Positions 5,476 through 12,940 of a stretch of DNA of 50,753 nt are shown piece after piece. Each line of letters begins with the position of its first letter. Position 1 is the stretch's first letter. The DNA comes from a virus. A model generated the notes under the pieces. That model was not told where the DNA came from. It was given only the letters and a program-made list of their open reading frames with translations, and searched no databases. The translations under genes were made by a program, and so were the position numbers. The DNA lies in the IMG/VR virus record IMGVR_UViG_3300027859_000483, positions 1-50,753 of that record; one strand, 5' to 3'.

Positions 5476-6108
5476 ATGGAAGTTGAAATAATTAATCCAT
5501 TTTACTTACGACATCTAGAAAAATTACGTTCAGATTTTTTTGATACCGAAGGTTATCATGATGAAGAATTTTATACTATACATCAAGATTATGATAACGG
5601 TGAATATTATTGTTCACCAGAATATCTAAATGTAATGAGATTAAAAAATCATGACGGTTATCCTGACGCTGGTTTTTGTCAACCATTATCTAAGATGGCT
5701 ACGGTTGACCATAGAAACTGGAAACCATTTTGGGAATATTGGAAATATGAATTCCCACCCTTGTTAGGTGCAACACACAATGCACTTTTAAATTACTATC
5801 CCGCAGGCGGTTACATAGGTTGGCATACTAATCAAAATGCATCTGCATATCAAATGATGTTTACCTATAGTGAAAAAGGTAAAGGTTATTTCAATTACTA
5901 TGATATAGAAGAAAATGTAATTGTAAGTTTAGATGACAAGAAAGGTTGGCAATGTCGTTGGTATTATTTTGGTTCAGACGATGAACCAGAAAAACATTTT
6001 TGGCATTCTGCATATTCTGGTTGTGATAGATTTACAATGACAGTAAAATTTTCAGATAAAAATATGTTAAATATGGCAATAGATGACTTGACATCTTCTG
6101 AACAATAG
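5476..6108 (+). CDS. 2-oxoglutarate/Fe(II) oxygenase-like (AlkB/prolyl-hydroxylase type) protein with altered metal motif
   Basis: A 210-residue protein with the jelly-roll signature of Fe(II)/2OG oxygenases: NYYPAGGYIGWHTN (residues 106-119), the strand AYQMMFTYSEKGKGYF, and a distal H177 followed by R185 in HSAYSGCDRFTMTVKF. The usual HxD metal triad start is H117-T118-N119, so asparagine replaces the acidic ligand. Either metal binding tolerates Asn or the protein is inactive or halogenase-like. Fold assignment is moderately sure; the substrate is unknown. The gene ends in the -35/-10 region of the next promoter. Confidence 0.65.
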   Translation: MEVEIINPFYLRHLEKLRSDFFDTEGYHDEEFYTIHQDYDNGEYYCSPEYLNVMRLKNHDGYPDAGFCQPLSKMATVDHRNWKPFWEYWKYEFPPLLGATHNALLNYYPAGGYIGWHTNQNASAYQMMFTYSEKGKGYFNYYDIEENVIVSLDDKKGWQCRWYYFGSDDEPEKHFWHSAYSGCDRFTMTVKFSDKNMLNMAIDDLTSSEQ

Positions 6109-6116
6109 TATATAAT
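6088..6116 (+). promoter_or_regulatory. Perfect sigma70 promoter upstream of the DUF3310-like gene
   Basis: TTGACA (6088-6093), 17-base spacer and TATAAT (6111-6116), both perfect. It lies across the end of the oxygenase-like gene; ACGGAG at 6117-6122 provides a ribosome site before the ATG at 6131. Confidence 0.8.
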
Positions 6117-6130
6117 ACGGAGTTTAAATT

Positions 6131-6409
6131 ATGAAAACAGACTATAAATATGATGAAGATAAATTCTTAAAAGAACTTGAGTCTTATGTTGATAAAACTT
6201 ATAATCAACATTATTCTAAAAACAAGTTTCAAGCAACGGAGTTTATTATTGACGGTGGACATGGAGAAGGTTTCTGTATCGGAAACATTATGAAGTATGC
6301 ACAACGATATGGAAACAAGAATGGGTATAACAAAGAAGACTTAATGAAGGTTATACACTACGCATTGATTATGCTTCACGTTCACGAGAAGACTCGTTCT
6401 AAAAACTAG
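6131..6409 (+). CDS. DUF3310-like small protein
   Basis: A 92-residue protein with the pattern of phage DUF3310 (SaV-like) proteins: QHYSKNKFQATEFI, then GFCIGNIMKYAQRYGNK, then KEDLMKVIHYALIMLHV. These proteins resemble the MazG-like helical fold and are often listed as putative nucleotide-metabolism proteins; the activity is unproven. It has its own perfect promoter (6088-6116). Its stop codon abuts a small convergent minus-strand gene, marking the boundary with the curli operon. Confidence 0.7.
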   Translation: MKTDYKYDEDKFLKELESYVDKTYNQHYSKNKFQATEFIIDGGHGEGFCIGNIMKYAQRYGNKNGYNKEDLMKVIHYALIMLHVHEKTRSKN

Positions 6410-6549
6410 GGAAATACTCTTCTAGTTACACACTCTAGTTCTTTCTTACCACAAAAAGTACACTTTGCACCGACTGGTACAAAGACTTTATCTTTTCTTT
6501 TTTCACAATGATGTGACCAAAAGGTATTACTGTTGGACGACTGAGACAC
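6406..6549 (-). CDS. Small zinc-ribbon-like protein at the end of the curli operon
   Basis: I propose a 47-residue gene read from a GTG at 6549, preceded on the minus strand by a G-rich run (ggggggt, about 5 bases upstream). The protein has SHHCEKRKDK then AKCTFCGKKELEC, a histidine/cysteine pattern consistent with one zinc site. It overlaps the 3' end of the curlin-like gene in another frame; starting at the ATG at 6606 would put its first 19 residues in pure overlap. It is last in the operon and tail-to-tail with the DUF3310-like gene. Function unknown. Confidence 0.5.
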   Translation of the reverse strand: MSQSSNSNTFWSHHCEKRKDKVFVPVGAKCTFCGKKELECVTRRVFP

Positions 6550-7342
6550 TACAACCCCCCGAAGTTTGACAGTTCTGTGATAAAGAATATGATTGTGCAG
6601 AACCACCTTGTTGAGTTAGATTTAGTGTAGTTGAGAAAGAGCCAGTCAAAGATATGTTTGCAGTATGTGTCGCATAACCACTTTGATACCCAGTCACATT
6701 GTTTCCGTCATTGTATGTAGATAGATTTACAGTTTTTACACCGTCAGTATTTTGTCTCCAGAATACATTGTTGTTATCAGAATAAAGATTGAAAGTTGCT
6801 TGATGTTCACTATAGATACCCGCAGATGAATTTCTTTGACTACCCGCAAGATTATTATTATCTCCGTGAATATCAATAGTTGCATCATGACCACCACCTT
6901 CACTTCCGTCCCATGAAAAAGTTGTATCAGTTAGAGAACTAAGTATATATCCTTGTCCCCAACGAACCGAGTTGTTGTCTCCGTAAATATGAAAACCTAT
7001 ATCAGATGTTTTACAACTTGCACCACGACCACATATTTGTTCAAAGTGTAGTTCATTGAATGTTCCGTCTATATCACCACTACTTAAACTACCCCAGTGT
7101 CCATAGGTCACATGGTTCTTATGTCCGTGTTGTATTATCTTTACTTTGTTTCCCCAGTGTTGCATAGAGAAGTCTACAAGGTTATCTTTACCTTCTTGTT
7201 CTATATACAACTCAATACCGTCTCCACTTTGCGTGATATTTATTTCATTATCTGCATAAAGATATTCTATACTGAGTAATATAATACTAAACCCTATCCA
7301 CCAAGGGAGTATAATCTTTATACCTTCTTTGAAACCTTTCAT
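6527..7342 (-). CDS. Curlin-like secreted repeat protein (second subunit)
   Basis: A 271-residue predicted amyloid-type subunit. Residues 1-30 form a signal peptide ending YLYA before DNEINITQ. Residues 31-75 carry curlin-type Q-x-G units (ITQSGDG, IEQEGKDN, IIQHGHKN). The rest has spaced D-x-N-N-(V/L) units (GDNNSV, GDNNNL, SDNNNV, DGNNV), as in curlin-like beta-solenoids. The C-terminus is SVVQQ. Several cysteines (CGRGASC, NCQTSGGC) are unusual for CsgA. It would be exported by Sec, then through the CsgG pore encoded upstream. Its first 30 mature residues parallel those of the subunit at 8935-9876. Whether it is major subunit or nucleator is unknown. Confidence 0.75.
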   Translation of the reverse strand: MKGFKEGIKIILPWWIGFSIILLSIEYLYADNEINITQSGDGIELYIEQEGKDNLVDFSMQHWGNKVKIIQHGHKNHVTYGHWGSLSSGDIDGTFNELHFEQICGRGASCKTSDIGFHIYGDNNSVRWGQGYILSSLTDTTFSWDGSEGGGHDATIDIHGDNNNLAGSQRNSSAGIYSEHQATFNLYSDNNNVFWRQNTDGVKTVNLSTYNDGNNVTGYQSGYATHTANISLTGSFSTTLNLTQQGGSAQSYSLSQNCQTSGGCSVSVVQQ

Positions 7343-7851
7343 TGATTAGGAGTAAGTTTACGATACTTTGCGTTGTTCTTTGGGTGGTATTCCATGTACT
7401 CTTCACTTTTTGCACGGTCTATCTGGTCTTGAGTAGGAGCTCCTTTCTCTCCTTTCTTTCTCATTTTTTCACCCGAACCTCTTTTAATTCTTTCTTTCTT
7501 TTTACGAATGTTATCCCAAAGACTTTCTTTATTCATCTCTTTGGTTTTCTTTTTCATCTTATTGATGTATTGACGATATACTGCGGCCTCTTCGGTCTTA
7601 CCCATTTCTCTTGCACGTTGTTCCATTGCAATCGCAGCCTGTATCTTATGTGCGTGTTTCTTACCAGAGTTTTCTATCTTCTTGACACTCTTTCTTGCAG
7701 TCTCTACATCTTTAAATCCAAGACCTTGAATAGTCCCTTTTGGATTTTCATCTGTGTATAGGTCAGAATGTTTTTTAGAATTAGCGGGTTGACCTTTCTT
7801 TCTAGGTATTCTAGGATTATCTTCTTCTGCAAAATGTTTAAAACTTTTCAT
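7339..7851 (-). CDS. Lysine-rich phage protein with capsid-targeting-like N-terminus, inside the curli operon
   Basis: A 170-residue very basic protein with no signal peptide, so probably cytoplasmic or virion-borne. It begins MKSFKHFAEED, resembling the T4 internal-protein capsid-targeting sequence. The middle (GLGFKDVETARKSVKKIE then KKHAHKIQAAIAMEQRA) matches a lysine-rich protein type I associate with T4-like marine phages, without a known function. It overlaps both neighbours by 4 bases (curlin-like gene downstream, FecR-like gene upstream), so it is a full member of the operon although nothing links it to curli biology. Confidence 0.75.
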   Translation of the reverse strand: MKSFKHFAEEDNPRIPRKKGQPANSKKHSDLYTDENPKGTIQGLGFKDVETARKSVKKIENSGKKHAHKIQAAIAMEQRAREMGKTEEAAVYRQYINKMKKKTKEMNKESLWDNIRKKKERIKRGSGEKMRKKGEKGAPTQDQIDRAKSEEYMEYHPKNNAKYRKLTPNQ

Positions 7852-8996
7852 TGTTGTATTATCGTTATGTTCGAACCCGAACCGTCTCCTAATATAATGT
7901 CACTTGGTTTCTGGTCAGTTATTGTGACTATCCTTGCATTTGAATAGATAGGTTGAGTAATTCTTATCTTACCAGTTACTTCTCTATTCAATGTGATTTT
8001 ACCCGCACTCTTATCTACTAAAGTATTGTACTGAGTATCTTGGTCAAAACCAACTGTTGTACCTTCTATATTTATACTATCTATCTCTTCTGACTTCCTA
8101 TCTAACTCAGTAAGTTTGTCTAAATCTGCAACAATGTCTAATACATCTTGTAAAAAGTCTACATCTAACAAGTCTATATCTAATTCAGTAAACTCAAATT
8201 CATCTTTATTATCTAACGCATCATCTTCTAATGCATCAAATTCTAAATAATCTATATCTAATATATTATCTTTATCATCGTTACTTTGTTCTTCTTCTTG
8301 TGCAATCTTTTGTATTTCTTTTGGTGGATTTACAATAAACATGTTATCAATCATAGGAATAGTAATACCTTGTAGAATAACAGTTTCTTTTGGTATGACA
8401 TCATAACTTTGTACCAGAGTTGCTTGATATGCTTCGTCCAGAACAATCTCTCCACCTAGATTAGAGACAATGACTGAACCAGAAGGAGCTCCAGTTTCAT
8501 CTGGTAAAAGAACTACTAAAGTTCTACCCAGTTCATCTACCGTGACCGTAAAGTCAGTTCCACGAATACCAATCGTTGCAGAACTTGTATTGATACTAAT
8601 ATTTTCTTTTGGTATTTTACCAGTCTTACTGGTAACAAATCTCGCAGTACCTTTTGCAAAGGTAAGTGCAAGAGTAGATTTTGTAGGGTTGGGGTCATAG
8701 ATAAATTTATCTACAATGACCATAGAATGTTCTGTTATGGTAAAAACACTTTCGTCAATTAGTTCAACTTTCATACGACCCTTCATGGTTTCCATTTTAT
8801 CCATGAAAAGAACCGAAAGGTCTACTGAACCTTCGTATGACTCTCCCGTCTGACGAGTGACTTGACTTGCACCCGTAGACTCTCGAACATCACCAATAGG
8901 TTCTGCGTATAATACAGAACCTATCAGTAATAAACTACTCGCCAGTATCTTGTTGAATAATCGTAATTTCTGAACCGTCTGTAACAAAACTTGCAT
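7848..8996 (-). CDS. Secreted FecR-domain protein with curlin-like C-terminal end
   Basis: A 382-residue exported protein. The N-terminus has a basic stretch and hydrophobic core ending VLYA (about residue 31). Residues 45-180 form a FecR-type domain: SVFTITEHSMVIVDKF, then LTFAKGTARF and INTSSATIGIRGTDF. A very acidic central segment (about 235-300) is rich in Asp/Glu/Leu, and the last residues are SNITIIQQ, matching the end of the curlin-like neighbour. FecR domains usually sense or bind cell-envelope polymers; here the protein could anchor or template the fibre. It overlaps the curlin-like gene upstream by 62 bases, so a shorter start is possible, but the signal peptide supports this one. 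Confidence 0.8.
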   Translation of the reverse strand: MQVLLQTVQKLRLFNKILASSLLLIGSVLYAEPIGDVRESTGASQVTRQTGESYEGSVDLSVLFMDKMETMKGRMKVELIDESVFTITEHSMVIVDKFIYDPNPTKSTLALTFAKGTARFVTSKTGKIPKENISINTSSATIGIRGTDFTVTVDELGRTLVVLLPDETGAPSGSVIVSNLGGEIVLDEAYQATLVQSYDVIPKETVILQGITIPMIDNMFIVNPPKEIQKIAQEEEQSNDDKDNILDIDYLEFDALEDDALDNKDEFEFTELDIDLLDVDFLQDVLDIVADLDKLTELDRKSEEIDSINIEGTTVGFDQDTQYNTLVDKSAGKITLNREVTGKIRITQPIYSNARIVTITDQKPSDIILGDGSGSNITIIQQ

Positions 8997-9876
8997 CTAA
9001 TATCGCCTCAGTACTTGATAAACTTGTACCCGTCCTTTGACCCACAAAGACATAGTTTTTATCTCCAGTAAGGTCTACAGACATTTTATTATCACTACCG
9101 TCTTCTTGAGTTGTTAATATCCAGTTGTTCGAACCAGTGATATCCCAATCCCAAGTTGCGTTTGCAGAGTTTACAAATGCACCAATTGTGTTAGATGCAC
9201 CAGAACCGTCTACTAGTAAATCTAAATTTAGACCGTCTGCACTACCTTCGGTAATAGTCCAACTATCCCAATATGCGGCTGTCGAACCATAGTTGTTAGT
9301 ACACGCAGAACCACCACACGTACCACCGTATGTACCATATTGCGTAATGTTTCCATTTTGAAACGTATGTGCGGAGTAAGTTTGAAATCCCGCACTATTG
9401 TTAAAGAACGCACCGTCTCCTAAATTATTAGGAGTATTATAAGTTTCAGATTTATTACCAAACCTAAATGTCAATTGATTACTACTTCCTTGTAGGTCAA
9501 CATTTAAATCGATATTATCTGCACTATAATTACTATTAGTATTTCCAGTGACATCACCAATCAACTGATTAATTCTGTTTGAAGAACCAGCGACATTGTA
9601 GTCGATATTAAATCCAGTGGACGCAATATCACCAAACAATAAGTTTGAACTACCATTGAACAACCAATATGCATTACCGTCTTCCAACTGCATTTTCATA
9701 TCGGACGCAGAAGAACCCGTACTTGTATTTTGACCAATCAGGTTTCCATTACCCGTTTGTTCAATAATTAATTCAAGTCCGTCTCCTACTTGTTCAATAT
9801 ATATCTCGTTGTCTGCAAACATAATTACAGGCAAATGTGTAATATAAAATAATAACAAACCGAGAACTACTCTCAT
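8935..9876 (-). CDS. Curlin-like secreted repeat protein (first subunit)
   Basis: A 313-residue predicted fibre subunit. The signal peptide (residues 1-21, ending MFA) is followed by DNEIYIEQVGDGLELIIEQ and then glycine/asparagine-rich repeats with G-(S/D)-x-N-x-(I/L/V) cores (GSSNLL, GSSNRI, GSSNQL, GASNTI, GDKNYV). It ends SEITIIQQDTGE. Composition and periodicity fit a beta-solenoid amyloid like CsgA/CsgB but longer, with less regular repeats. It lies immediately downstream of csgG with a 4-base overlap, so pore and substrate are made together. Nucleator and main subunit cannot be told apart from sequence. Confidence 0.75.
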   Translation of the reverse strand: MRVVLGLLLFYITHLPVIMFADNEIYIEQVGDGLELIIEQTGNGNLIGQNTSTGSSASDMKMQLEDGNAYWLFNGSSNLLFGDIASTGFNIDYNVAGSSNRINQLIGDVTGNTNSNYSADNIDLNVDLQGSSNQLTFRFGNKSETYNTPNNLGDGAFFNNSAGFQTYSAHTFQNGNITQYGTYGGTCGGSACTNNYGSTAAYWDSWTITEGSADGLNLDLLVDGSGASNTIGAFVNSANATWDWDITGSNNWILTTQEDGSDNKMSVDLTGDKNYVFVGQRTGTSLSSTEAILDASFVTDGSEITIIQQDTGE

Positions 9877-10742
9877 TTTTTCTCCTTTATTTGGTGTCTA
9901 TCGTTTGTCCCGTCATTCATATGCGGGTGTCGATGTCCACCTTCTATTTCCCAATAACCCCTATCGTGGCCTTGGTAAATAAGTTCTAATACCGCAACTT
10001 CAATCGCAGAACGTGTCGCATATGTGACACTTTCATTAAATCCGTTACCGTCTTCAATTTCCAATAACTGTGTATCCATATCAAAAAATCGGAATACATC
10101 ATATCCACCACCTACAGATAAGATTGTTTTCTTTGTCTGTACGTTTAACAAAACCTCTCCAGTTAGTGTTGATACTACTCGCACACTAACGACTACTGAG
10201 TCTCTTCTATACGTAGTCGATGCACCAATACCTAACCACCTTGCACCACGACCACCAGACTCTAAGTTAGTATCGTATCCTACAATACCACCTTCTACTA
10301 ATAATCCCGCAAATAATAAAGGACTTAACTTTTTCTTTTCGTTAAACTCCTCTCTCGCACTTCTTATAATCTGTCTTTCTTTGACAAGTGCATCTATATT
10401 TGTTCTCTCTACAACTCTAAACCATTCTCCTTTACCCGCAGTTTTCAGTGCATCAATCAGTAAAGTTTCTGCACCTTGAGTCACTGCAGTAGAAAAGTCA
10501 GAAAAGTTATCTCTATATTTTCTTTGACCAGTCTTATCTAAAAACTGATATACTGCAACTACTACCTTATCACCTTTAGGTGGATTAATTTTTTTCAGTG
10601 CTTCGGTTGTTGGTATGTTTTCAACACTTGCACTCTCACGACACATAAATTGTTCATCTTCACAATCTATTTCATGAAACTTAGTTATACTTGCACACCC
10701 GCACATGACTACGATTAGTCCGAGTATAACAAAAAATCTCAT
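9873..10742 (-). CDS. csgG: CsgG-like curli secretion lipoprotein pore
   Basis: A 289-residue outer-membrane lipoprotein of the CsgG family, the nonameric export pore of type VIII secretion. A lipoprotein signal ends at MCGC, giving C16 as the lipidated residue. The family core is clear: VVVAVYQFLDKTGQRKY, then FSTAVTQGAETLLIDAL, then WFRVVERTNIDALVKERQII; the transmembrane hairpin regions RGARWLGIGASTTYRRD and VVSVRVVSTLTGEVLLNV follow, then SAIEVAVLELI. Length matches cellular CsgG (about 277). The C-terminal tail is His-rich (GGHRHPHMNDG). It is flanked by csgF upstream and curlin-like genes downstream with 1- and 4-base overlaps. Confidence 0.93.
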   Translation of the reverse strand: MRFFVILGLIVVMCGCASITKFHEIDCEDEQFMCRESASVENIPTTEALKKINPPKGDKVVVAVYQFLDKTGQRKYRDNFSDFSTAVTQGAETLLIDALKTAGKGEWFRVVERTNIDALVKERQIIRSAREEFNEKKKLSPLLFAGLLVEGGIVGYDTNLESGGRGARWLGIGASTTYRRDSVVVSVRVVSTLTGEVLLNVQTKKTILSVGGGYDVFRFFDMDTQLLEIEDGNGFNESVTYATRSAIEVAVLELIYQGHDRGYWEIEGGHRHPHMNDGTNDRHQIKEKK

Positions 10743-11224
10743 TAGAATAAACCACTTCCTATCGGTACATCTAAACTTGTTGTTGTATTATCCTCACTGG
10801 TAATTGATATTCTTATAACATCAACACCGTCTATTCCACAACCAGTGCATACTTCATAACTTATACTGTTTCCCATTAAATCAAAGAAACCTTCTAATGA
10901 AGCGTCTACCTCTTCTGTACCGAACATCTTATCTACTAGTTGTTTGGATATCTGTGCATAAATCCTAGACTCTAAATTTCTTAGGAATTTTGCTTGTGTT
11001 GTTCCTTCTGCATCTCTTTCTGCAGCCGCAATCGCAGACTCTAAGTCATCTGCAATTTTACCTCTTCTACTTTTCTCTTGGTTTTCAATTGTTAGATAAT
11101 GAGATGACGTAGATATACCAGAGAAACTAGGACTCTTAAATTTATGTACTACTTCGGAAGTGTATAGGTATATATTACTTGCGAGTAGACTTAGTATCCA
11201 AGTTATTGTTAGTATTTTTTTCAT
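10742..11224 (-). CDS. csgF: CsgF-like curli assembly factor
   Basis: A 160-residue protein with an N-terminal hydrophobic export segment followed by VVHKFKSPSFSGISTSSHYL. This aligns with the mature CsgF N-terminus (F-x-F-x-N-P-x-F-G-G) that plugs into the CsgG pore. A helix (KFLRNLESRIYAQISKQLV) and a C-terminal strand region (YEVCTGCGIDGVDVIRISITSEDN) follow in CsgF order; the CxxC is an addition I do not know from cellular CsgF. Length is close to the usual 138. In E. coli, CsgF passes through CsgG and couples secretion to nucleation. It sits directly upstream of csgG. Confidence 0.85.
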   Translation of the reverse strand: MKKILTITWILSLLASNIYLYTSEVVHKFKSPSFSGISTSSHYLTIENQEKSRRGKIADDLESAIAAAERDAEGTTQAKFLRNLESRIYAQISKQLVDKMFGTEEVDASLEGFFDLMGNSISYEVCTGCGIDGVDVIRISITSEDNTTTSLDVPIGSGLF

Positions 11225-11480
11225 TGTTTTCTCTACTTTTTTGTTGATTTCTGTATTCTATTACAGTGTTTACCTTTTGTTGTAATCTAATTAAATCATT
11301 ATCTAACATTCTTATTTGGTCAAGGAGATTGATTAACATTGTATGTGACGCACTAATCGTTGGTTTCAACTTAGTAGTCACATATTGCCATACATACCAG
11401 ATAAAATATCCCATACCAAAAGTCATTAGAACGGGATATCCTAATTCATTAATAATTAAAACTATTTGGTCAATGTTCAT
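11175..11480 (-). CDS. Small membrane protein with coiled coil (curli operon)
   Basis: A 101-residue protein with one N-terminal transmembrane segment (about residues 12-35, VLMTFGMGYFIWYVWQYV), a heptad-like region (LLDQIRMLDNDLIRLQQKVNTVIE) and an Asn/Lys-rich tail. It has the same plan as the protein encoded just upstream (11480-11776), so the two are probably paralogues. Start and upstream stop share bases, and its 3' end overlaps csgF by 50 bases. It may be an inner-membrane partner of the secretion module; holin- or spanin-type function is an alternative. No CsgE similarity. Confidence 0.7.
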   Translation of the reverse strand: MNIDQIVLIINELGYPVLMTFGMGYFIWYVWQYVTTKLKPTISASHTMLINLLDQIRMLDNDLIRLQQKVNTVIEYRNQQKSRENNEKNTNNNLDTKSTRK

Positions 11481-11776
11481 TAATCTCGTCTCGCATCAAT
11501 TTTACCGTCTTCCATAAAATTTTCCGCACGAGCAACCCTATCTACATCGGGTCTTAATTCCAAAGCCTCACTGACGATTAAATCTATTTTAATCATGTCG
11601 TTATTCATTTGACGAACTCTAGACTCTAATCCTTTCATGATGTTAGTAAGTCCTTGTACCGAACCCGCAACACCGTCTAGAATGTATTTCAATGTCAGAA
11701 AGATAAAGAAACCCATAACGATAGCTGAACCTATCGGAATTCCTACTTCCATTAATAATTTTACTACAGTTGTCAT
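11480..11776 (-). CDS. Small membrane protein with coiled coil, first gene of curli operon
   Basis: A 98-residue protein with an N-terminal transmembrane helix (about residues 10-33, IPIGSAIVMGFFIFLTLKYIL) followed by an amphipathic helix (GLESRVRQMNNDMIKIDLIVSEAL) and a charged C-terminus. It is the first gene behind the late promoter at 11784-11791, with GGAG directly before the ATG. Helix order and length match the next gene, which supports duplication. Function unknown. Its place at the head of a curli-type operon suggests an envelope role in secretion or regulation, which is inference. Confidence 0.7.
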   Translation of the reverse strand: MTTVVKLLMEVGIPIGSAIVMGFFIFLTLKYILDGVAGSVQGLTNIMKGLESRVRQMNNDMIKIDLIVSEALELRPDVDRVARAENFMEDGKIDARRD

Positions 11777-11783
11777 ACACTCC

Positions 11784-11791
11784 TATTTATA
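11784..11791 (-). promoter_or_regulatory. T4-type late promoter of the curli operon
   Basis: On the minus strand the sequence reads TATAAATA, the exact T4 late -10 box, followed after 7 bases (GGAGTGT) by the ATG at 11776. This predicts that the secretion module is transcribed late in infection from a transcript with almost no leader. Confidence 0.7.
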
Positions 11792-11830: not shown

Positions 11831-11859
11831 TTGACAATTATTGTTTTGTCATGTATAAT
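11831..11859 (+). promoter_or_regulatory. Perfect sigma70 promoter of the outer-membrane protein gene
   Basis: TTGACA (11831-11836), 17-base spacer, TATAAT (11854-11859). It is divergent from the late curli promoter within the 113-base region 11777-11889. TTGGAG at 11878-11883 serves as ribosome site for the ATG at 11890. Confidence 0.85.
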
Positions 11860-11889: not shown

Positions 11890-12489
11890 ATGAAAAAACT
11901 TTTAGTATTAATAGTTCTTTTATCTGCACCGATTTTTGCAGAGAATTGGGATAGAGAACAACTAAACTTTAAAGTCCAAACTAAAGATGTCCATTATAGG
12001 TACAGACATTACTTTGGAGAGAGTGATAAAACACATCATCAATTAGGATACAAATATGAGAACTGGCAGTTTTCATATCAGTACATTGAAAAGAAAGGTA
12101 GGATTGAACACCGACCTAGAGTATCCGTAAAACTCTTCAAACAAGATAATGGTTTCTACTTTAGACCTAGAGTAGAGTATCGTGATATCGAAGGTAAAAA
12201 AAGTAACACTTATTACTTTAGAGTATTAACAACTCTTGGTTATAAGGGGAACTTTAATTGTAATTCAGACTTAGTTTGTTTTGCACCACAAGTTCATTTC
12301 TCACCTAGATTTGCATTTGCAAAAGACGGAGTAGATGACGGAGACTTTGAAGATATTCAAACTGATATCATGTTAAATATTAAGTTTGGTAAAAAGTTCA
12401 CTATAAGGCCTGGGGTTAGATACATAGTAGATGATGACTACAATACCGACAAACTCTACGCAACCTTACAGTTTAGTGTCAAATTCTAA
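11890..12489 (+). CDS. Small outer-membrane beta-barrel protein
   Basis: A 199-residue secreted protein. The signal peptide (MKKLLVLIVLLSAPIFA) is followed by alternating strands rich in Tyr/Phe/Arg (VHYRYRHYF, HQLGYKYENWQFSYQYI, PRVSVKLF, FYFRPRVEYRDI, YYFRVLTTLGYK, KFTIRPGVRYIVDDD). The C-terminal strand LYATLQFSVKF ends in phenylalanine, the Bam recognition signature. About eight to ten strands fit the length. It is transcribed from a host-type promoter, opposite in direction and timing to the curli operon. It could alter the host surface, for example to block superinfection, or be a specific porin; neither can be decided. One cysteine pair (CNSDLVC) is present. Confidence 0.8.
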   Translation: MKKLLVLIVLLSAPIFAENWDREQLNFKVQTKDVHYRYRHYFGESDKTHHQLGYKYENWQFSYQYIEKKGRIEHRPRVSVKLFKQDNGFYFRPRVEYRDIEGKKSNTYYFRVLTTLGYKGNFNCNSDLVCFAPQVHFSPRFAFAKDGVDDGDFEDIQTDIMLNIKFGKKFTIRPGVRYIVDDDYNTDKLYATLQFSVKF

Positions 12490-12940
12490 GTACCAAGTAT
12501 TTGATAACTTTTTAGAAGACCCAGATGAAGTATTGGAGTACGCAAGTACATGTCAATACTTCACTGCGGAAGAATATCTAAAAATAAATAAACTAGAGTC
12601 TAAAGGATATTGGCCTGGACTCCGAAGTAATGATTTAAAATTAGAATTTCCTGATATTGTAAATCAATTAAATACTCAATTCAATATCAAAGTAGGTTGG
12701 TTAACATTTTATCAACATTTAGTATCCCAGAACTTAGGAGAACCCGTACCACATATCGACAGAGCATGGGATTTTTCTGGAGTCATCTATCTAAAAGGAA
12801 GTGACGGTACATGGATAGATAATGAGACTGTTCCTTTTAAATATAATCGTGCAGTTTGTTTTGATGCACATACACCACACCACCCATTACATAGTACTAC
12901 TGACCGTTTAGTTCTTACCTTCTTTTCTAAGTACGTATAA
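12476..12940 (+). CDS. 2OG-Fe(II) oxygenase-like protein (DUF6445-like)
   Basis: A 154-residue protein read from GTG at 12476; an ATG at 12431 is in frame but would overlap the barrel gene by 59 bases, and the paralogue at 31216 starts at the equivalent point (VIRDFLDN versus VFDNFLED). The metal set is complete: H93-I-D95, H135-H139 region (HTPHHPLH) and R144 in DRLVLTFF. SGVIYLKGSDG between them matches SGVIHLKGSQG of the paralogue. It is probably a small iron-dependent hydroxylase; target unknown. It overlaps the barrel gene by 14 bases and may be coupled to it. Confidence 0.7.
   Translation: MSNSKYQVFDNFLEDPDEVLEYASTCQYFTAEEYLKINKLESKGYWPGLRSNDLKLEFPDIVNQLNTQFNIKVGWLTFYQHLVSQNLGEPVPHIDRAWDFSGVIYLKGSDGTWIDNETVPFKYNRAVCFDAHTPHHPLHSTTDRLVLTFFSKYV

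Follow-up and report, generated by a model that had tools for sequence, protein, structure and literature searches.

The 50,753-base virus record IMGVR_UViG_3300027859_000483 of IMG/VR, hereafter called the window, contains an operon of eight minus-strand genes (11776 to 6527) that is, judged from its sequence, a phage-borne type VIII (curli) secretion module and a divergent member of the type VIII secretion system (T8SS) of pelagiphages. The system is already known, since it has been published as pelagiphage T8SS (Zaragoza-Solas 2020; Buchholz 2022; Wittmers 2022). New here are the proposal that its FecR-domain protein belongs to the exported fibre or anchors it, indications from the comparison of about 80 relatives that two small proteins at the head of the operon are not kinases, and a rare related operon in Caulobacteraceae. 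Taken together, the data favour, with a probability of roughly 55%, a late-expressed T8SS that would export curlin-like fibres, with the FecR-domain protein as their structural partner or anchor, a pair of transmembrane (TM) proteins as an addition, and adhesion as the benefit. Few entities of the sea are as abundant as Pelagibacter and its phages, and the question is why lytic phages bear a full set of curli export genes that is missing from their hosts. Moreover, other experiments become worthwhile if FecR is a fibre component and the reported histidine kinases are small membrane proteins.

Gene content and conservation of the operon

The window belongs to a marine T4-like phage; its T4-like character is indicated by a UvsX-like recombinase, a DnaB-like replicative helicase, and the NrdA/B subunits of ribonucleotide reductase. 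All eight genes of the operon overlap or abut in the list of open reading frames (ORFs) of the window, and their strand is opposite to that of the neighbouring genes. Starting from 11776, they encode two small single-TM proteins, CsgF, CsgG, a first curlin-like subunit (CurA), the FecR-domain protein, a 170-residue insert, and a second curlin-like protein (CurB). The initial annotation had placed CsgG, CsgF, two curlin-like secreted proteins, and a FecR-domain protein together in overlapping genes, all of which are present, and had left the two small TM genes and the 170-residue gene without an assignment and the FecR protein without a role. Its span of 6406-11776 holds the operon but overshoots the stop of CurB at 6527 by 121 bases, a part that includes a terminator-like hairpin with a T-rich tail (6463-6484, minus strand).

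When IMG/VR was scanned with CsgG, at least 575 relatives were obtained, 80 of which were kept, and 83 loci were compared using iterated profiles. The order TM-TM-CsgF-CsgG-curlin-FecR-curlin is found in most of the loci with enough sequence, while some show the variant TM-CsgF-TM-CsgG; across the loci, the TM family was counted in 77, CsgF in 80, and FecR in 68. The same order thus recurs in about 80 viral contigs and in the phages HTVC008M of Pelagibacter (gp011-gp019) and Melnitz EXVC044M of OM43 (genes 97-104), from which it follows that the operon is more than a chance assembly. The CsgG of the window shares 47.6% identity with that of HTVC008M and 43.4% with that of Melnitz. Both of these modules differ from the window operon by an added adenylate/guanylate cyclase with a CHASE2 domain at the 3′ end and by the lack of the 170-residue insert. 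A CHASE2-cyclase gene is usual in pelagiphage modules, being frequent rather than universal, and none is found in the 50.7-kb window record, which is itself a fragment. Compared to bacterial curli (csg) systems, the phage module has CsgG, CsgF, and curlin-repeat subunits in common, but it lacks CsgE, possesses an additional FecR protein and TM pair, and has curlins with few recognisable repeats.

The remark in the initial annotation that curli-like modules occur in pelagimyophages proved right in the literature. CsgF and CsgG with unknown partners were described in pelagimyophages, for which sibling capture was proposed (PMC7029224). The genes were also reported in Melnitz, where the subunits were held to be missing, a pinholin-like role was proposed, and no clumping was observed (PMC9004378). 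A full module with curlin subunits, FecR, a so-called histidine kinase, and a cyclase was described in podo- and myophages (PMC9599517), the only report in our literature search in which FecR and phage curli are treated together. PHROGs families exist for the phage CsgG, CsgF, FecR, and both small proteins, all of which are annotated as of unknown function.

The secretion pore and the curlin-like subunits

CsgG (9873-10742, minus strand), an outer-membrane pore protein of 289 residues having an N-terminal signal with a cysteine, matches PF03783 above the cut-off (1e-49) and E. coli CsgG structures in a phmmer search of PDB sequences (E=4.6e-46). Its constriction loop, TGQRKYRDNFSDFSTAV, retains a phenylalanine aligned with that of the E. 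coli constriction loop, and this loop is conserved across all CsgG relatives (TGQR..STAV). CsgF (10742-11224, minus strand; 160 residues with a signal peptide) also exceeds the cut-off of its family (PF10614, 4.2e-7; phrog_35372, 1.2e-35), and the HTVC008M homologue is recovered by profile at 4.7e-16; a single-sequence search of PDB sequences with CsgF gave no match. Both profiles that the initial annotation had proposed as a check are therefore significant.

CurA (8935-9876, minus strand; 313 residues) carries an N-terminal curlin repeat (Curlin_rpt, 0.016) and ends in EITIIQQDTGE. CurB (6527-7342, minus strand; 271 residues) shows a Curlin_rpt match of 0.0028 and a C-terminus, ..NCQTSGGCSVSVVQQ, that is conserved in relatives together with its position. 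The scores of 15.6 and 18 bits lie below the Pfam cut-off of 20.7, which is exceeded by Melnitz CurA (26 bits) and HTVC008M CurB (33 bits), and 27 of 45 CurA relatives have a Curlin_rpt match (best, 8.6e-6). These repeats above the cut-off speak against the view that subunits are missing from Melnitz. A hydrophobic N-terminal segment is present in both proteins, and CurA, the one curlin that was folded, is predicted as a beta-solenoid in an AlphaFold2 model, in which confidence is high except in an insertion at residues 144-210 (mean pLDDT, 70.9; pTM, 0.70). Of the features that the initial annotation had expected of the repeat proteins, the solenoid is thus predicted for CurA and a signal-like segment is seen in both. 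A fold search of the PDB with this model returned only non-significant beta-solenoids, among which the E. coli CsgA fibril ranked sixth (E=2.6). CurB reaches 441-490 residues in several relatives, and that of HTVC008M (gp018, L082:8585-9910, annotated as hypothetical) combines a PA14 domain, absent from the window CurB, with curlin repeats in a single protein, which suggests a role of this protein in adhesion.

Putative late promoter

A T4-type late promoter match, TATAAATA, lies at 11784-11791 on the minus strand, 7 bases upstream of the first ATG at 11776 (TATAAATAGGAGTGTATG), exactly where the initial annotation had placed it. The arrangement TATAAATA-N(2-20)-ATG occurs nine times in the window against 2.3 expected, a count reached in none of 100 shuffles, and 33 of 73 relatives have the box within the 80 bases that precede their first TM gene, although these are related loci and not independent. 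No strong sigma70 match was found on the operon strand just upstream of the operon, whereas perfect TTGACA-17-TATAAT promoters, located at 6088-6116 and 11831-11859, serve the plus-strand genes on either side. Late transcription of the operon from a T4-type promoter is plausible because the box is present and a strong sigma70 match is absent before the operon.

The FecR-domain protein

The FecR-domain protein (7848-8996, minus strand; 382 residues) overlaps CurA by 62 bases and matches PF04773 above the cut-off (6e-10) and phrog_37870 (4.6e-55). Its model, read as a five-domain layout, comprises a signal peptide, a FecR beta domain at residues 35-210, an acidic low-confidence linker at about 212-306, and, at 310-382, a second beta domain that forms the C-terminus and is well predicted. 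This last domain ends in the curlin-type strand NITIIQQ (7851-7871, minus strand), in which Ile377 and Gln381 are invariant among 42 relatives with a mean identity of 44%. The motif [IVL]x[IVLF]xQ is common to the FecR C-terminus and the curlin subunits. In its strict form within the last 14 residues, it is found in 34 of 35 non-redundant T8SS FecRs and in none of 105 other non-redundant FecRs; the lone exception, L077, has ISITQ slightly further in. A looser motif occurs in 2% of 304 other ORFs and in no CsgG or TM protein. A looser pattern with tyrosine produced false positives in tyrosine-rich bacterial tails; the stricter pattern was used for the comparison above. Among bacterial contigs, the FecR loci with the motif are precisely the five that adjoin curlins.

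The N-terminal part of the FecR domain has a remote likeness to the anchoring domain of a Marinomonas ice-binding adhesin (5ix9), a LapA-type retention domain, which was the sole PDB match by profile (E=0.0018) and was also found by fold (Foldseek E=0.014; TM-score 0.72 on the target over 62 residues). This likeness holds at the domain level only, as the type I secretion pore and the long RTX adhesin of LapA-type systems are absent from the phage module. Collectively, these features suggest a structural role for the FecR protein, as a component or an anchor of the fibre, and not a role in gene regulation.

The small transmembrane proteins

TM1 (11480-11776, minus strand; 98 residues) and its paralogue TM2 (11175-11480, minus strand; 101 residues) both belong to phrog_18771. 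TM1 consists of a single TM segment followed by a helical part and has the conserved C-terminus ..DARRD. The 149 relatives of the family span 54-115 residues, with one hydrophobic segment and then a charged helical region, and the two paralogues are always distinguishable, one of them ending in DARRD. By their position, they are probably the genes that were named histidine kinases in PMC9599517. That identity is rejected here: none of the 149 has an H-box or GxGxG, no kinase Pfam match was obtained, and the proteins are too short. Membership in the BhlA/holin group was considered because the layout is similar; the Pfam matches of the pair were scattered and unconvincing, the best including CAAD (0.004) and YvrJ (0.024).

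Proposed mechanism and alternative explanations

From these features we infer a course of timing, export, fibre formation, anchoring, and benefit, in which a working T8SS most likely places curlin-like fibres on the infected cell. The operon would be transcribed late in infection from the T4-type promoter, and CsgG nonamers with CsgF would form the outer-membrane channel. CurA and CurB would reach the periplasm by the host Sec system via their signal peptides, pass through CsgG, and assemble into fibres at the surface. The FecR protein would act as a structural partner of these fibres, and most likely as an anchor: its folded FecR/retention-like domain would be kept in the periplasm, the acidic linker of about 95 residues would thread the CsgG pore, and the displayed C-terminal beta domain would join the fibre by its curlin-type strand. 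The TM/coiled-coil paralogues could be a phage addition in the inner membrane for assembly or gating. The most likely benefit is that late adhesive fibres attach the infected cell, or what is left of it, to hosts nearby. Our more specific proposal is tentative, namely that the FecR protein of phage and rare bacterial curli modules represents a new kind of fibre anchor with a retention-like periplasmic plug, a CsgG-threaded linker, and a fibre-incorporated curlin-like strand, accompanied by a phage-added paired inner-membrane TM/coiled-coil complex that is found in no bacterial curli locus examined.

Several observations count against this scheme. The larger FecR fold is matched by periplasmic domains of anti-sigma proteins (4m0h, PupR; 6ovk), whose fold E-values are better than that of 5ix9. 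When the C-terminal domain of FecR was aligned with curlin profiles by hhalign, the probability was a non-significant 16% at best, over 14 columns, with column-shuffled profiles scoring lower, and for this reason only the short motif, and not homology of the domain with curlin, is claimed. The proportion of 34 of 35 is to be read as conservation and not as 34 independent events because the T8SS FecRs are one family. In addition, clumping was not observed for Melnitz (PMC9004378), so that adhesion as the benefit remains a guess.

Two alternatives concern the role of the FecR protein. It could be a periplasmic chaperone, gatekeeper, or CsgE substitute that caps the curlins by strand addition, delivers them to CsgG, and stays in the periplasm. 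This would fit the absence of a CsgE profile match in the window and 18 related records, two of which are the complete genomes of HTVC008M and Melnitz, and also the fact that an acidic, secreted, strand-capped FecR protein always adjoins the curlin genes. CsgE is itself not universal, being reported missing from alphaproteobacterial modules (PMC9599517). Against the chaperone, other alphaproteobacterial T8SS loci lacking FecR were seen (Azospirillum), which are presumably functional without it. Since the retention-domain resemblance and the long acidic linker suit a threaded anchor equally or better, we consider the chaperone rather unlikely. The proposal made for pelagiphages in PMC9599517, that FecR, the small upstream proteins, and the cyclase are regulators (an iron-type FecR and histidine kinases), draws on the PF04773 match, the anti-sigma fold matches, and the CHASE2-guanylate cyclase of HTVC008M and Melnitz. 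It is nevertheless highly doubtful: a TM segment beyond the N-terminal hydrophobic signal segment occurs in none of 68 FecR proteins, no second Pfam domain common to the family, including a cytoplasmic anti-sigma domain, was detected, no sigma factor is encoded in the operon, the TM proteins lack kinase features, and the window record holds no cyclase.

The other two alternatives leave the fibre out. CsgG and CsgF alone might act as a gated pore or pinholin-like lysis timer (PMC9004378), for which the late-type promoter and the holin-like size and layout of the small TM proteins at the operon head could be cited. We regard this as improbable, given that most loci with enough sequence keep CurA, FecR, and CurB alongside CsgG, that curlin repeats are detectable contrary to the missing-subunit premise, and that the CsgG constriction loop is retained. 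Uptake of large nutrients or cofactors through the channel during infection, raised in PMC7029224 and PMC9599517, would benefit from a pore left open if ungated, as no CsgE was found, and an outer-membrane-barrel-like ORF adjoins the operon (11890-12489). This ORF, however, is restricted to the window lineage and two distant matches, and uptake leaves CsgF, two curlins, and the FecR protein unexplained, making it very unlikely as the function of the module.

A bacterial counterpart in Caulobacteraceae

Two contigs of Caulobacteraceae metagenome-assembled genomes (MAGs; L086 and L087) carry an operon of the order CsgF-CsgG-curlin-curlin-FecR-CHASE2/cyclase, lying among chromosomal neighbours such as acyl-CoA dehydrogenase, TonB receptor, and glycosyltransferase-like genes. 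As in the phage module, CsgF, CsgG, two curlins, and a FecR with the same C-terminal motif are present; the operon differs in having no TM pair and in placing FecR after both curlins. It therefore constitutes an exception to the claim that FecR and cyclase do not occur in bacterial curli operons, as it holds both. The operon is rare within the family, where 2 of 390 genomes have it, and no annotated FecR was found beside CsgG in the other alphaproteobacterial loci seen (Azospirillum, Bosea). In the CsgG tree, the Caulobacteraceae sequence branches inside phage sequences (100/94), with a very long outgroup. A simple bacterial donor was not adopted on these grounds; transfer could have run in either direction, and the operon may have been acquired from a phage because its CsgG nests among phage sequences.

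Other features in and around the operon

The 170-residue lysine-rich protein between FecR and CurB (7339-7851, minus strand; phrog_16028/phrog_727) is probably not part of the export machinery. It is confined to the lineage of the window, has an internal deletion in L006 and L007, and is absent from the operon of L008; in L008, a P-loop ATPase-like ORF (L008:3-1043) has a related C-terminus. Its start, MKSFKHFAE, was considered as a possible capsid-targeting leader; no other ORF of the window begins in this way.

A CsgG homologue with 42% identity is present in OR851715.1 (Salmonella phage S.Kent 1-2-1; 1,499 bases), which may be host DNA and not phage. Phage-type curli modules with the TM pair also occur in MAGs assigned to Sphingobacteriales, Planctomycetaceae, and Pirellulales (L084, L085, and L088), and these are probably mis-binned phage contigs. 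The barrel-like ORF at 11890-12489 (plus strand) encodes 199 residues with a signal peptide, is divergent from the operon, and has a perfect sigma70 promoter; it is conserved in the window lineage, the distant matches being in L027 and L045. Finally, two short proteins flanking the operon (window 5476-6108 and 12431-12940) resemble proteins of the 2OG-Fe(II) oxygenase type. Genes for such proteins often lie close to this module, for example in HTVC008M (gp004, gp005, and gp010).

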